7,133 nt of DNA, taken from NCBI GenBank assembly GCA_025934635.1, contig JAICWX010000392.1, positions 1-7,133 of the forward strand, given 5' to 3'. This document shows positions 2,512 through 7,133 of this stretch, in pieces (within the stretch, counting starts at the first letter, position 1; each line of letters starts with the position of its first letter). A program made the position numbers and the translations under genes. A model generated the notes under the pieces. That model saw only the letters and a program-made list of their open reading frames with translations, was not told where the DNA came from and ran no database searches. Source of the stretch: Streptosporangiaceae bacterium. Its GTDB lineage: Bacteria > Actinomycetota > Actinomycetes > Streptosporangiales > Streptosporangiaceae.

Positions 2512-3396
2512 TTATTCGAGGAACGGCGGACGGCCGACCGAGGTGAGCTTGTCCGGGTTGCGGACGACGTAGATGGCGGTGATGCAGCCGTCCCGCGACG
2601 TCACCGTCATCACCTGCTCGACAGCGTCACCCGCCGAGAGAATGAGGCCCGCGGAGCCGCCGACGACAGCCGGGCGAGCGGTCAGGTGACGGCCGTAGCG
2701 GCGGGCCGCGCCGACGAGGAAGCGGGCCACCGGGACGGAACCGGTGAGCGGGCGGCGAGCGGCCCGGCGGCTGGGACCTCCGTCGGTCAGGCAGACGACC
2801 TGCGGCGCCAGCCGGGCGACGACCGCGTTCACGTCGCCGGACGACAGCGCCCGGAGCAGCCCGTCGACGAGTTCACGGTCGGCCATGGTGCTCCGGGCGG
2901 GCGGCTGGTCCGGCCGGAGCCTGCGGCGGGCCCGGCTGGCGATCTGCCGGCAGGCGGCCGGGGAGCGGCGCACCGTGGCGGCGATCTCGGCGTAAGGGAC
3001 CTTGAAGACGTCCGCCAGGACGAATACCGCCCGCTCGACCGGTGCCAGCTGGTCCAGCAGCACCAGGAAGCCGAAGGTCAGGGATTCGGACAGCTCGGCG
3101 GCGCTCTCCGGATCGGCATCGGTGACGACCGGCTCGGGCAGCCACGGGCCGGGGTAGATCTCCCGGGTCCTGGCCGCGGACCGGAGCCGGTCCAGACACA
3201 GGCGGGTGGCGGCGGTGACCAGCCAGGCCTCGGCGTTGGCGATGAGCGCGCGGTCGGCGGCCTGCCAGCGCAGCCAGGTGTCCTGGGCTATGTCGTCGGC
3301 GTCGGCGAGGGTGCCGAGCATCCGGTAGGCCAGGCCGCGGATCCGGGGCCTGGCCGCCTCGAACGGGTCGGGGCTCACGTCCGGGTCGGGGCTCAC
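2512..3396 (-). CDS. sigJ: ECF41-group RNA polymerase sigma factor (SigJ type) with fused SnoaL-like domain
   Basis: A 294-aa alternative sigma factor. Region 2 is at about residues 11-80 (RGLAYRMLGTLADADDIAQDTWLRW). The linker motif WLPEPV lies at 85-90. Region 4 is at about 105-162 (LLDQLAPVERAVFVLADVFKVPYAEIAATVRRSPAACRQIASRARRRL). A SnoaL/NTF2-like C-terminal domain spans about 170-285. WLPEP(L/V), DGGGK and NPDKL mark ECF41; here they read WLPEPV, DGGPS (205-209, altered) and NPDKL (280-284). In ECF41 the C-terminal domain replaces a separate anti-sigma factor and controls activity. The GTG start overlaps the stop of the upstream oxidoreductase gene (GTGA), which implies translational coupling. 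A second in-frame GTG at 3376-3378 lies in the adjacent 18-bp repeat. Transcription probably starts at the ECF41-type promoter at 4646-4672, giving autoregulation. The inducing signal is unknown. Confidence 0.92.
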   Translation of the reverse strand: MSPDPDVSPDPFEAARPRIRGLAYRMLGTLADADDIAQDTWLRWQAADRALIANAEAWLVTAATRLCLDRLRSAARTREIYPGPWLPEPVVTDADPESAAELSESLTFGFLVLLDQLAPVERAVFVLADVFKVPYAEIAATVRRSPAACRQIASRARRRLRPDQPPARSTMADRELVDGLLRALSSGDVNAVVARLAPQVVCLTDGGPSRRAARRPLTGSVPVARFLVGAARRYGRHLTARPAVVGGSAGLILSAGDAVEQVMTVTSRDGCITAIYVVRNPDKLTSVGRPPFLE

Positions 3397-3400
3397 GTCC
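3365..3400 (-). repeat. Perfect 18-bp tandem duplication over the sigJ start
   Basis: Two identical copies of GGACGTGAGCCCCGACCC (minus strand, 3400-3383 and 3382-3365) each contain a GTG in the sigJ frame. The repeat encodes the N-terminal MSPDPDVSPDP and includes the stop codon of the upstream oxidoreductase in its first copy. It supplies two equivalent start codons 18 bases apart. A similar 12-base repeat lies at the cysteine hydrolase start (5329-5364). Confidence 0.8.
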
Positions 3401-4637
3401 GGGCCGTGACCGGGACGGCCTGGACCGCGCGCAGGGCGGCGGCGTGCCCGCTGGCCAGGGCGGCGTCAGCGAGGAGGCCGGCCGGGCCGACCCAGTCGCC
3501 GGCCAGGTAGACGCCAGGCAGCCCGGTCGCGCCGACCGCCGGCCGGCCGCCGAGTCCGCCGCGCGCCGCGACCGGGGCCGCCCCCGCGACGACCATGCGG
3601 GCAAGGAACCGGCTGGTCACCACGTCTTCCTCCCGAAGGCCGGCCCGTTCCAGGTGGGCTTGGAGGGCGGCCCGGTCCGCTCTGGCTTCGGTGGCACCAT
3701 AGCGGACGGCGGCCACGACCGCCTGGCCTGGCGGCGCCTGGCGGGCAGGCGGCGCCTGGACTGCCGCGTACACGGGGGCGTCGATGCCGAGGACGTAACC
3801 GGGATCGGGCACCCGCCGCGAGCCGGCGTCGAGGCACGCGGCCGTCAGCTCGGGACCGAGGTCGCCCCAGCCCGGGTCGGCGGGCAGCAGCCGCCGCGCC
3901 GCGGCCGGGCGGCCGGCCGCGATGATCACCGAGCGGGCGGCCAGCGGGCCGTCGCCGGTGGCCACCTCGACCCGGCCGGCCACGGGCGCGACGCCGGTGA
4001 CCTTGATCCCGGTGCGTACCTGGCAGCGGACGGCCAGCCGGGCGACCAGCTGGGCCCAGCCGCCGTCCAGGTACACGACCCCGCCCGCGGCCAGCTGCAG
4101 CTGGGCGACGGCGGCGTCGGCGGCAAACGTGTCCAGGTCGCAGGCGTACGTGGTCAGGCGGACCAGCGCGCTGACAGCGGCGGCGGCCGCCGGTCCGAGG
4201 CCGGCGCCGGCGATCCACTGCGACACCGAGGCGCCGGCCGGCCGTCGCGGAGTCAGCCGGGACAGGCCCGCCAGGAGCGCGGCCAGCGCCTCCTTGTCCT
4301 CCGGGCCGAGGAGCGTCGTGCTGCGCAGCGAACCGGGGCCGGTCGGCATCAGGTGGAGCCTGCCGCCGGCCAGGGCCTGGTAGCGGCCGAGCGGCGGCGC
4401 GCTGCCCTGCGGTTCGATTCCCAGGCTGCGCAGCACCCGCCACCCCGCGCCGCCCTGGTAGAGAGCGTGCAGGCCCCGGTTGAACACGAAGCCGTCCCGC
4501 GTGGTGACCCGGGCCCGGCCACCCGGCACGTGGGCATCGAGCACGAGCACCGCGGACCCGGCCCGGGTGGCGGTGGCTCCCGCGGCCAGGCCGGCCAGGC
4601 CGGCTCCGATCACGATCACATCCCAGTCAGCTCTCAT
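3393..4637 (-). CDS. FAD-dependent oxidoreductase of the amine oxidase/phytoene desaturase-like group
   Basis: A 414-aa flavoprotein. The N-terminal dinucleotide-binding motif is VIVIGAGLAGLAAG (7-20, GxGxxG at 11-16), with an acidic residue at the end of strand 2 (LVLDAHVPGGRARV, Asp34) and the PGGRA turn typical of this superfamily. The C-terminal FAD-contact segment is GVYLAGDWVGPAGLLADAALASG (375-397). GGVVYLDGGWAQLVARL (185-201) matches the 'xGGxxxLxxxL' substrate-domain segment of phytoene-desaturase-like proteins. There is no signal peptide or membrane segment, so it is probably cytosolic. The substrate is unknown. It lacks the layout expected of a sarcosine oxidase (DAO family), so a direct role after the neighbouring hydantoinase-type genes is not supported. 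It overlaps sigJ by 4 bases and is preceded by the ECF41-type promoter, making it the likely primary target of that sigma factor. No Shine-Dalgarno precedes its ATG. Confidence 0.85.
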   Translation of the reverse strand: MRADWDVIVIGAGLAGLAAGATATRAGSAVLVLDAHVPGGRARVTTRDGFVFNRGLHALYQGGAGWRVLRSLGIEPQGSAPPLGRYQALAGGRLHLMPTGPGSLRSTTLLGPEDKEALAALLAGLSRLTPRRPAGASVSQWIAGAGLGPAAAAAVSALVRLTTYACDLDTFAADAAVAQLQLAAGGVVYLDGGWAQLVARLAVRCQVRTGIKVTGVAPVAGRVEVATGDGPLAARSVIIAAGRPAAARRLLPADPGWGDLGPELTAACLDAGSRRVPDPGYVLGIDAPVYAAVQAPPARQAPPGQAVVAAVRYGATEARADRAALQAHLERAGLREEDVVTSRFLARMVVAGAAPVAARGGLGGRPAVGATGLPGVYLAGDWVGPAGLLADAALASGHAAALRAVQAVPVTART

Positions 4638-4645
4638 ACCGCGTA

Positions 4646-4672
4646 GACGGCCGGGCCGGCCTGGCTGTGACA
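4646..4672 (-). promoter_or_regulatory. ECF41/SigJ-type promoter of the oxidoreductase-sigJ operon
   Basis: On the minus strand the -35 element TGTCACA (4672-4666) is followed by exactly 16 bases and the -10 element CGTC (4649-4646). This is the ECF41 promoter signature as I recall it from published work on that group. It lies in the only sizeable gap of the minus-strand cluster (4638-4706), directly upstream of an operon that encodes an ECF41 factor. Only 8 bases separate the -10 from the ATG at 4637, so the transcript should begin at or within a few bases of the start codon. Confidence 0.75.
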
Positions 4673-4706
4673 GGGTCCTCGCGTGAGGCGGCCGCGACCG
4701 GGCCGG

Positions 4707-5360
4707 CTACGGCGCGGCGAACCGGGCGACGGCCTCTTCGATCGTGGCGATGTCGGCGTACTTGGCCTGCAGGTCGGCGATGTTGGCGTCGTGGATGGCC
4801 GGGCTCCGGTCCCCGCAGGCCGCCGCGACGACGATGGGCCGGAAGCCGTGCTGCATGGCGTCGGTGGCGCTGGCCCGGACGCACCCCGAGGTGGAAACGC
4901 CGGCGATGACCGCGGTGTCGATCCCGGCGGCGGTGAGGGTGGCCGCCAGCGAGGTGCCGAAGAACGCGGAGGCGTACTGCTTGACGATGACGACCTCGGC
5001 GTCCCCGGGCTCGAGGCCCTCGGCGAACTCGCCCTGGTCGCCGGGGACGTCCTCGGCCAGCAGCCGCAGCGCGCTGACCTTGCGGACGAACAGGCCGCCG
5101 TCGCTGGCGCCGGGGCGGTAGCGGACCCGGGTGTGCACGACGGGCAGGCCTGCCGCGCGGGCGGCCGCGAGCAGGCGCGCGCACCCGGTCACGGCCGCGT
5201 CGGAGCCGAGGTCGAACGGCGAGCCCGGCGTGAAGTAGGCCCGCATCATGTCGATCAGGATCAGGGCCGGCCGCTGGCCCCAGCCCATCGACCCGCCCCA
5301 GGTGCCCTCGCCGCCGGCCGCCCCGGGGCCGGTCACGTCCCTGCTCATGTCCGGGCTCAT
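4707..5360 (-). CDS. Cysteine hydrolase, isochorismatase superfamily (N-carbamoylsarcosine amidase-like)
   Basis: A 217-aa amidohydrolase of the isochorismatase-like fold. The catalytic triad is visible as Asp37 (PALILIDMM), Lys127 (VVIVKQYASAFFGT) and Cys160 (GVSTSGCVRASA). The stretch STSGCVRASATDAMQHGFRPIVV is closest in style to N-carbamoylsarcosine amidase and maleamate amidohydrolase rather than to true isochorismatases. The expected reaction is hydrolysis of an amide or N-carbamoyl group with release of ammonia. The ATG at 5358-5360 is chosen because it overlaps the hyuB stop in ATGA. A second ATG at 5346-5348 lies in the next repeat unit, and the frame also stays open upstream to 5408. 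No Shine-Dalgarno is seen, so translation is probably coupled to hyuB. Acting after a hydantoinase-type enzyme, an N-carbamoyl amino acid is the most economical substrate guess, but this is inference. Confidence 0.87.
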   Translation of the reverse strand: MSPDMSRDVTGPGAAGGEGTWGGSMGWGQRPALILIDMMRAYFTPGSPFDLGSDAAVTGCARLLAAARAAGLPVVHTRVRYRPGASDGGLFVRKVSALRLLAEDVPGDQGEFAEGLEPGDAEVVIVKQYASAFFGTSLAATLTAAGIDTAVIAGVSTSGCVRASATDAMQHGFRPIVVAAACGDRSPAIHDANIADLQAKYADIATIEEAVARFAAP

Positions 5361-5364
5361 GTCC
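5329..5364 (-). repeat. 12-bp tandem repeat over the cysteine hydrolase start
   Basis: On the minus strand, GGACATGAGCCC, GGACATGAGCAG and GGACGTGACCGG follow one another without spacing. Units 1 and 2 share their first 10 bases; unit 3 has drifted. Each unit carries an in-frame ATG or GTG, the first overlapping the hyuB stop. The core GGAC(A/G)TGAGC is the same as in the sigJ start repeat. Confidence 0.65.
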
Positions 5365-7133
5365 AGACCGGGCGCTGCGGCGCGGGCAGGCCGGTTTCCT
5401 CCTGGCACCGGGCCAGCAGTTCGGGCAGCGGCGGGCCCATGTCGAAGACCGGCAGCTCGGCCGGGCGGGCGGCGCGCATTTCCTCGCGCAGCGCGCTGGT
5501 CCGGCCGGCGTCCACGCCGCCGCCGTCGCTATCGCCGCCGGCCAGCACGACGCCGTAGCGCCGGGCACCGTCCGCTGTGACCAGGCCGCGCCGGACCTCG
5601 AGGGCCACCAGGCCGGGATCGCGCTGCAGCGGGTCGCCCCAGCCGCCGCCGCCCCAGGTGACGAAGTGCAGCACGTCGCCCGGGGCGACCGGGACGTCAT
5701 GGCACTTGCTCGGCAGCACCTCACGGGTCCCGCCGACCCGGTCGATCCACTTGCGGCCGCGGGCGCCCGGCAGGCCGCCGTTGACGCCCCACGGGTAGGT
5801 CAGCCACCGGTCGTCGTGGATGGCGATCGTCCCGGGCTCGAGGAACCGGTACGCGACGTCGACGCCGTTGCCGCCCCGGTGCAGGCCGGGGCCGCCGGTG
5901 TCGGCGACGGTCTCCCAGCGCTCGATCCGCAGCGGGTAGTAGGACTCGAGGAACTCGCAGGGGATGTTCACGAAGCTCGGCCACAGCGAGTGCCCGTCCG
6001 GGCCGTCGCCGAGCGGACGGCCGGGAATGCCGCCGAAGCCGATCGAGTACAGCTGGAACCACTCCCCCGCGCGTTCGCCGCCGGAGTACCGGCCGGAGTA
6101 CATGAAGTGCGGGGACGAGGAGAACCCGGCCGCGTTGAGCAGCGCCGGGTTGGTCTGCCCGAGCAGCCCGCCGAACAGGTCGAAGACCCGCCCGATGCCG
6201 TGGTTGCGCGCGTTCAGGGCGGCCGGGTGCCGGGGCTTCCAGTAGGAGCCCTCGGGGATGGTGACGTCGACCAGGGGGTAGAAGCCGTCGTTCCACAGGA
6301 TCTGCGGGTCCGCCACCGTGATCATGTAGATGCCGAAGAACATCCGGGCCAGGTTCTCGTTCAGGTAGTAGTTGACCGGCCCGACCGCCTGGGGGGATGA
6401 GCCGGTGAAGTCGAGGTGCACCTTGTCGCCGGTCCGGGTGAGCGACAGCTTCAGCTCATACGGCCCGTACCCGACGCCGTCGTCGCAGATGTAGTCGGTG
6501 AACGACAGCGTCCGGCCCTCTTCGAACACCACCTGGAGCAGCGTCTTCATGGCCCGGTAGTTACGGTCGAGCAGGGCGTCGAGCGCGGCCAGGTAGGTCG
6601 CCACGCCGAACCGGGCGCACATCTCCTGCACCCGCCGCGACGCGGTCCGGCACGCGGCGACCAGGCCGTTCAGGTCGGCCCGGTTCCAGTCGGGGACGCG
6701 GACCTGGTTCAAGATGATGCGCAGTGCGTCGTCGTTCAGCTGGCCCGCCTTGTACAGCGTGAACGGCGGGATGACCACGCCCTCCTCGTAGATGGTGCGC
6801 GCGTCGGTGGGCATCGAGCTCGGCGTCTTGCCGCCGACGTCGGACATGTGGCCGAACATGGACGCCCACCCGACCAGCCGTCCCTCGACGTAGACCGGCA
6901 GGACCACGAGCCAGTCGTTGGCGTGGCTGATCGCCGCGCCGCAGGCGTACGGATCGGAGGTCAGGAGCACGTCGCCCTCGCCGATCTCCCCGTCGAAGCC
7001 GTCGAGGAAATCGGGGATGGACAGGCCGAACTGGCCGACCACCATCTTGCCGCTGGGGTCGGCGATCAGCGGGAACTCGTCGTGCTGCTCCCTGATGCCG
7101 GGCGACAGCGCGGTCCTGAACAGCACCTCGTCC
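5357..7133 (-). CDS. hyuB: Hydantoinase B/oxoprolinase-family subunit (5' end outside the window)
   Basis: The visible 591 residues cover nearly all of a hydantoinase B protein. The frame runs off the right edge, where DEVLFRTALSPGIREQHDEFPL matches the region normally about 25 residues after the start, so the true start lies just outside. Family landmarks, numbered from the GTG codon at 7126, are GDVLLTSDPYACG (51-63), FGHMSDVGGKTPSSMPTDARTIYEEG (91-116), LDFTGSSPQAVGPVN (238-252), GGPGLHRGGNGV (411-422) and TWGGGGWGDPLQRDP (490-504). Hydantoinase B proteins act with a HyuA-type ATP-binding subunit in ATP-dependent opening of 5-oxoproline or (N-methyl)hydantoin rings, or in the related acetone/acetophenone carboxylases. 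The hyuA partner is expected to the right of the window. The stop overlaps the cysteine hydrolase start (ATGA), which favours hydantoin ring opening followed by amide hydrolysis. The frame shows no internal damage. Confidence 0.92.
   Translation of the reverse strand, partial: DEVLFRTALSPGIREQHDEFPLIADPSGKMVVGQFGLSIPDFLDGFDGEIGEGDVLLTSDPYACGAAISHANDWLVVLPVYVEGRLVGWASMFGHMSDVGGKTPSSMPTDARTIYEEGVVIPPFTLYKAGQLNDDALRIILNQVRVPDWNRADLNGLVAACRTASRRVQEMCARFGVATYLAALDALLDRNYRAMKTLLQVVFEEGRTLSFTDYICDDGVGYGPYELKLSLTRTGDKVHLDFTGSSPQAVGPVNYYLNENLARMFFGIYMITVADPQILWNDGFYPLVDVTIPEGSYWKPRHPAALNARNHGIGRVFDLFGGLLGQTNPALLNAAGFSSSPHFMYSGRYSGGERAGEWFQLYSIGFGGIPGRPLGDGPDGHSLWPSFVNIPCEFLESYYPLRIERWETVADTGGPGLHRGGNGVDVAYRFLEPGTIAIHDDRWLTYPWGVNGGLPGARGRKWIDRVGGTREVLPSKCHDVPVAPGDVLHFVTWGGGGWGDPLQRDPGLVALEVRRGLVTADGARRYGVVLAGGDSDGGGVDAGRTSALREEMRAARPAELPVFDMGPPLPELLARCQEETGLPAPQRPVWT

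Follow-up and report, generated by a model that had tools for sequence, protein, structure and literature searches.

Introduction

The ECF41 promoter was described by Wecke et al. (2012; PMC3426412) as TGTCACA-n16-CGTC and lies before a COE gene, with Amino_oxidase among the accepted COE oxidoreductase domains and a WLPEP motif in the linker of the sigma factor. In that study the order COE-ECF, with both genes co-directional, was found in 107 loci, and the promoter was located at the COE gene in 97. The COE gene was identified as the target in two species, an RSP_0606-ecf41 operon was proposed as the target, and ydfG of B. licheniformis was monocistronic. Both the ECF41 signature and the autoregulation of COE-sigma pairs are already published.

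Genes without a leader are widespread in Actinobacteria. Switches in the mode of initiation among genes that share an ancestor have been described as a general phenomenon (PMC3160421), and a leaderless M. tuberculosis sigE transcript is raised in starvation (PMC3160421, PMC3898074); neither sigJ nor sigI is named in the part of PMC3898074 covered here, and ECF41 promoters do not come up in the covered parts of either paper. The word "leaderless" is absent from the main text of PMC3426412. A literature search that paired "ECF41" with "leaderless" and covered few subscription papers returned a single paper, on S. meliloti (PMC3616915), and we found no prior report of leaderless ECF41 promoters. 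Here we analyse an actinomycete oxidoreductase-sigJ operon whose ECF41-type promoter is predicted to give a leaderless mRNA.

Results

Genes and predicted promoter of the window

The window, that is, the whole stretch of DNA analysed, is 7133 nt long, and the features of its oxidoreductase-sigJ operon are collected in Table 1. Searching both strands with the pattern TGTCACAN{14,18}CGTC gave a single match, an exact TGTCACA-N16-CGTC at 4672..4646 on the reverse strand. It falls within the 69-nt gap 4638-4706 (-) that separates the stop of an isochorismatase-type hydrolase gene (4707) from the ATG of the oxidoreductase, and its elements, set 16 nt apart upstream of a COE gene, are those of an ECF41 promoter, for which a spacer of 16 +/- 1 nt is allowed. 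The last C of CGTC is at 4646 and the A of the ATG at 4637, leaving 8 nt between them. The original prediction, of one exact copy of the motif in this gap, on this strand and ending 8 bases before the ATG, was therefore accurate in each of these respects.

Table 1. Coordinates of the oxidoreductase-sigJ operon and its predicted promoter in the window
Feature	Position	Strand	Basis
SigJ/ECF41 sigma factor, 294 aa, sigma2 + sigma4 + C-terminal extension, WLPEP linker	2512..3396	-	
4-nt overlap GTGA, shared by the oxidoreductase stop and the sigJ start	3393..3396	-	
FAD-dependent amine-oxidase-type (phytoene-dehydrogenase-like) oxidoreductase, 414 aa, operon gene 1	3393..4637	-	PF01593 54.5 bits, PF13450, homologues
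Predicted transcription start, A of ATG	4637	-	YR peak at offset 8; TSS spacing of the S. meliloti rpoE9 operon
Stretch between -10 and start codon, 8 nt, TACGCGGT	4638..4645	-	
-10 element CGTC	4646..4649	-	16-nt spacer, same as consensus
-35 element TGTCACA	4666..4672	-	consensus TGTCACA in PMC3426412

The second gene of the operon encodes a protein with both sigma2 (PF04542) and sigma4 (PF08281) above cut-off. It scores 320.1 bits against the SigJ profile NF007214 (cut-off 271) and 306.9 against the other SigX4 profile, TIGR02957, under the cut-off of 323.25. Its match to the M. tuberculosis SigJ structure 5xe7 (E 7e-57) reaches residue 286 and so takes in the C-terminal extension of about 100 residues expected of ECF41/SigJ factors; a SnoaL domain gave no Pfam match at E 1e-3. 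The WLPEP motif given in PMC3426412 is present in the sigma2-sigma4 linker, the PF01593 oxidoreductase adjoins sigJ as a COE gene should, and no anti-sigma family was seen among the seven window proteins scanned. Since PMC3426412 defined this promoter and the COE-ECF order, and since the sigma factor fits SigJ, neither the promoter type nor the operon type of the window is new.

In the stretch that begins 4 nt past the promoter motif and ends four codons short of the FAD-binding glycine motif of the oxidoreductase, the ATG at 4637 is the only in-frame ATG, GTG or TTG; two GTGs, at offsets 26 and 32, fall within the strand leading into that glycine motif. (Offsets are counted in nucleotides past CGTC.) The energy of pairing with the 16S tail, taken over the 17 nt that end 3 nt before the ATG, is -2.5 kcal/mol, weaker than the background mean of -3.9, so that the gene lacks a Shine-Dalgarno sequence, as had been claimed. 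It thus has neither a Shine-Dalgarno sequence nor another plausible in-frame start, as is expected of a leaderless mRNA. The predicted mRNA folds unremarkably over its first 70 nt (z 0.04).

The window sigJ likewise has no Shine-Dalgarno sequence (-2.9 kcal/mol), and in some leaderless relatives the energy of the region before sigJ is as strong as -8.4. A 4-nt overlap of the form xTGA between oxidoreductase and sigJ was found at 23 of the 30 homologous loci (see below) with sigJ downstream; of the 10 loci that remain, three end before the stop, four show no sigJ and three have sigJ upstream. The overlap and the two genes without Shine-Dalgarno sequences would fit the originally predicted translational coupling, by re-initiation on sigJ. 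The sigJ start region, 3364-3396 (-), also contains a tandem repeat, GTGAGCCCCGACCCGGAC then GTGAGCCCCGACCCG, and as a result has two GTG starts in the same frame, with a spacing of 18 nt. At the other end of the window, an HxlR-type regulator gene (1-573) is directly followed by the stop of a TnpB remnant of the IS200/IS605 type (574-1419, -), in which the profile matches only from about position 150 and the frame stays open to 1566.

Homologous loci with and without leaders

We compared 40 homologous oxidoreductase loci, the window included. The others were the best 8 of 64 matches among genome contigs, 23 of the 24 found in 296 genomes of the G001 class (L081 in this set duplicates L001) and all 8 found in the 341 genomes of the family of G456. 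That family was chosen because the 16S of G456 was 96% identical to Nonomuraea in a class-wide search; a first look at 24 large genomes had found a 16S in 11, none closer than 91.2% to Nonomuraea. Protein identity was 76-90% for the closest homologues, in the upper part of the match list, and for the loci compared it was at most 58% among the contig matches listed and at most 51% in the G456 family. The 394 genomes of the class of G302 yielded one weak oxidoreductase homologue with no motif seen, and plasmid records yielded no homologue.

The motif was present within 330 nt upstream at 29 of the 40 loci, 26 times as the exact TGTCACA-N16-CGTC and three times with TGTCACG, and 11 loci had no motif. 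Together with the gene content and gene order, which are of the type published in PMC3426412, this supports the reading of the site as an ECF41 promoter. Twelve of the 29, among them the window, have no Shine-Dalgarno sequence and an in-frame start past CGTC at a distance of 8 nt in 10 loci and of 9 nt in two, and 16 were assigned to a start at least 23 nt from CGTC, with a Shine-Dalgarno sequence. One locus, L003, was kept out of both groups; it has the motif and an ATG at offset 8, but this ATG opens a short ORF out of frame with the aligned part. In the leadered group, further in-frame start codons occur at offsets 11-20 in L008, L092 and L103, and a GTG occurs at offset 6 in L087; in each the later start was taken for its better Shine-Dalgarno sequence, although the two candidates of L103 are nearly equal in energy (-9.0 and -9.5).

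When the best Shine-Dalgarno energy over all in-frame candidates is taken, the 8/9-nt group spans -2.1 to -8.3 and the leadered group -8.2 to -15.4 kcal/mol (Mann-Whitney p 1.1e-5, the groups having been assigned beforehand), with the two touching at L098 (leaderless, -8.3) and L097 (leadered, -8.2). A first test had used hand-picked leadered starts, and the repeat over all candidates gave the same split. The homologues do not count as independent observations, since several are closely related: L336 with L338 and L339, L001 with L005, and L082 with L332. In a tree of 28 oxidoreductases, the leaderless and leadered forms require four changes, two of them forced by well-supported branches, against 9.3 for shuffled labels; the window falls in a four-member clade, all leaderless, with support 99/96. 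Across the oxidoreductase family, the promoter core appears to persist while the leader is gained or lost. Since its relatives have the same layout, the original prediction for the window appears largely right, although each of its ingredients had been known before. The three loci that carry sigJ upstream rather than downstream of the oxidoreductase, L333, L334 and L335, have no motif before the oxidoreductase.

Motif sites beyond the oxidoreductase family

The strict motif was counted 236 times in 148 genomes from the class to which G302, the source genome of the Streptomyces locus L019, belongs, and the 150 listed sites were studied. A SigJ-like match lies within 2 kb (tblastn E 1e-8) at 49 of these, and in this SigJ-linked set ATG stands at offset 8 in four and GTG in three, with neither in 42. 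Over all 150 sites, ATG is found at offset 8 in nine against 0.88 expected from offsets 9-24; because L222/L235/L245 and L279/L282 look related, these nine count as about six independent cases (Poisson p 3e-4). ATG is commoner still at offset 2 (12 of 150 sites), an offset that lies outside the 0.88 expectation; these sites include L176, L179 and L184, which are near-copies, and L157, L222 and L235, which also have ATG at offset 8. Genes 8 nt behind the motif encode sigma factors (L228, L264), an NAD-binding/epimerase protein (L266) and a protein with a weak, below-cut-off match to carboxymuconolactone decarboxylase (L279), and those of L157 and L282 gave no Pfam match. The predicted leaderless form is a minority among the ECF41-type promoters sampled in this class and is common in the oxidoreductase family.

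Two other arrangements were noted among these sites. At L228, divergent ECF41 motifs each lie 8 nt before a start codon, that of a sigma factor on one side and of an MMPL transporter (PF03176, GTG start, at least 664 aa) on the other. At L222, L235 and L245, none of which has a SigJ match within 2 kb, TGTCACA-N16-CGTC lies 8 nt before the ATG of similar small proteins, and those of L222 and L235 match DnaJ weakly, below cut-off; these three may represent an extra ECF41 target or a conserved coding sequence.

Transcription start point

The leadered promoters offer a view of the start point that is independent of start-codon choice. A pyrimidine-purine (YR) step occupies offset 8 in 12 of the 14 leadered homologues used (the 16 leadered loci less L008 and L332) and in 24 of 40 SigJ-linked sites, de-duplicated and lacking an ATG at that offset, whereas the YR fraction at the other offsets from 0 to 19 is 0 to 0.36 in the leadered sets. 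Against an assumed 0.21, the corresponding p values are 4e-7 and 9e-8. SigJ-unlinked sites show a smaller rise at the same offset (0.42 of 89). Leadered ECF41 promoters tend to carry a Y-G-A initiator at offsets 7-9 past CGTC, which may serve as a usable predictor of the start point. We also considered leaderless upstream mini-ORFs at the SigJ-linked sites L298, L277 and L236, where an NTG at offset 6 opens 8 codons, and dropped them because this NTG would precede a transcript starting at offset 8 and because the string fits the initiator signature.

On the split of the homologues by Shine-Dalgarno energy, the YR peak at offset 8 and the start mapped in S. meliloti 9 nt from the motif, comparison supports a leaderless mRNA in the window, with +1 predicted on the A of the ATG. 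This is in line with the earlier expectation of a start at or just before the ATG and of a leaderless first gene.

Start choice at bacterial promoters often wobbles, and purines lie close by at G4639 and G4640. A real, SigJ-driven promoter could accordingly fire from 2 to 5 nt ahead of the start codon, and the mRNA, with its very short leader, would be translated as a leaderless one is. We consider this unlikely, as the YR signal peaks at offset 8 in both leadered sets, the start codon stands at 8 or 9 in twelve homologues and the mapped distance in S. meliloti is 9 (PMC3616915), although the additional starts of L008, L092, L103 and L087 described above keep the comparison from being clear-cut. 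Initiation on the A of the ATG itself is the reading that we prefer.

Discussion

The DNA itself displays the motif and its position, the absence of a Shine-Dalgarno sequence and of any other plausible start, the gene overlap and the recurrence of this layout in part of the homologues. We suggest, with a probability of about 0.77, that an ECF41-type promoter fires the oxidoreductase-sigJ operon through its own SigJ. RNA polymerase carrying this SigJ would recognise TGTCACA-N16-CGTC and begin transcription at the A of the ATG, yielding a leaderless mRNA; ribosomes would load on the 5'-terminal AUG without a Shine-Dalgarno sequence, translate the oxidoreductase and, by way of the GTGA overlap, probably re-initiate on sigJ. 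A rise in SigJ would then give more transcription, a positive feedback, and the C-terminal extension of SigJ may gate its activity.

The isochorismatase-type hydrolase and hydantoinase B/oxoprolinase genes (4707-7132, -) lie directly upstream in the same direction, only the 69-nt gap intervenes and no terminator-like site was found in 4500-5000, between these genes and the promoter. Read-through could therefore also supply operon mRNA, and one might suppose that oxidoreductase and sigJ are read mainly in this way, with the motif weak or idle. The motif is nonetheless kept at 29 of 40 homologous loci, and a read-through mRNA would give the oxidoreductase no Shine-Dalgarno sequence, which makes this supposition very unlikely. 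That the match is a chance one is scarcely credible: the pattern does occur away from sigJ (101 of the 150 sites in the 148 genomes have no SigJ-like match within 2 kb) and its reversed form is found 72 times against 236, but a match turned up in 2 of 200 whole-window dinucleotide shuffles, and the window's match sits in the one expected gap, on the expected strand, and recurs in homologues.

If the self-activated, leaderless operon is accepted, a further and decidedly speculative step, which we think rather improbable, can be taken. Were the ECF41 polymerase to start at a rigid distance from the -10 element, the promoter core could be flipped between Shine-Dalgarno-led and leaderless expression by gain or loss of the leader alone; and because the whole window operon, sigma factor included, has no Shine-Dalgarno sequence, its feedback might reach full strength only under conditions in which leaderless translation is favoured, as in starvation or stress. 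If true, this would be a translational gate on a sigma factor.

Whatever the merit of that idea, the presence of both forms in one gene family provides a natural series on leaderless translation of a putatively self-activating sigma factor. Moreover, a start 8 nt past CGTC, at a YR step, is a prediction drawn from nucleotide sequence alone that can be checked with actinomycete 5'-end data.

The closest published start-point evidence is consistent with this distance. The SMb20029-rpoE9 operon of S. meliloti has the same motif as the window and a start mapped 9 nt downstream of it (PMC3616915), although S. meliloti is an alphaproteobacterium, unlike the window's host. In Table 5 of PMC3426412, the leader lengths of ydfG and RSP_0606 are 31 and 32, against 22 and 23 by RACE; we read the excess of about 9 as the same motif-to-start distance, though by the table's legend the length is counted from the start site. 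In the leaderless actinobacterial genes of PMC3160421 and PMC3898074, the -10 element lies about 10 bp before the start codon, as in the window, but the leaderless signal given for Actinobacteria in PMC3160421 is a TAnnnT pattern and not an ECF -10. Finally, both 5'RACE-mapped promoters of PMC3426412 have leaders, of 22 and 23 nt, with a ribosome-binding site, whereas the window is predicted to be leaderless, and our results would thus add a recurrent leaderless form to the existing picture of the ECF41 promoter.
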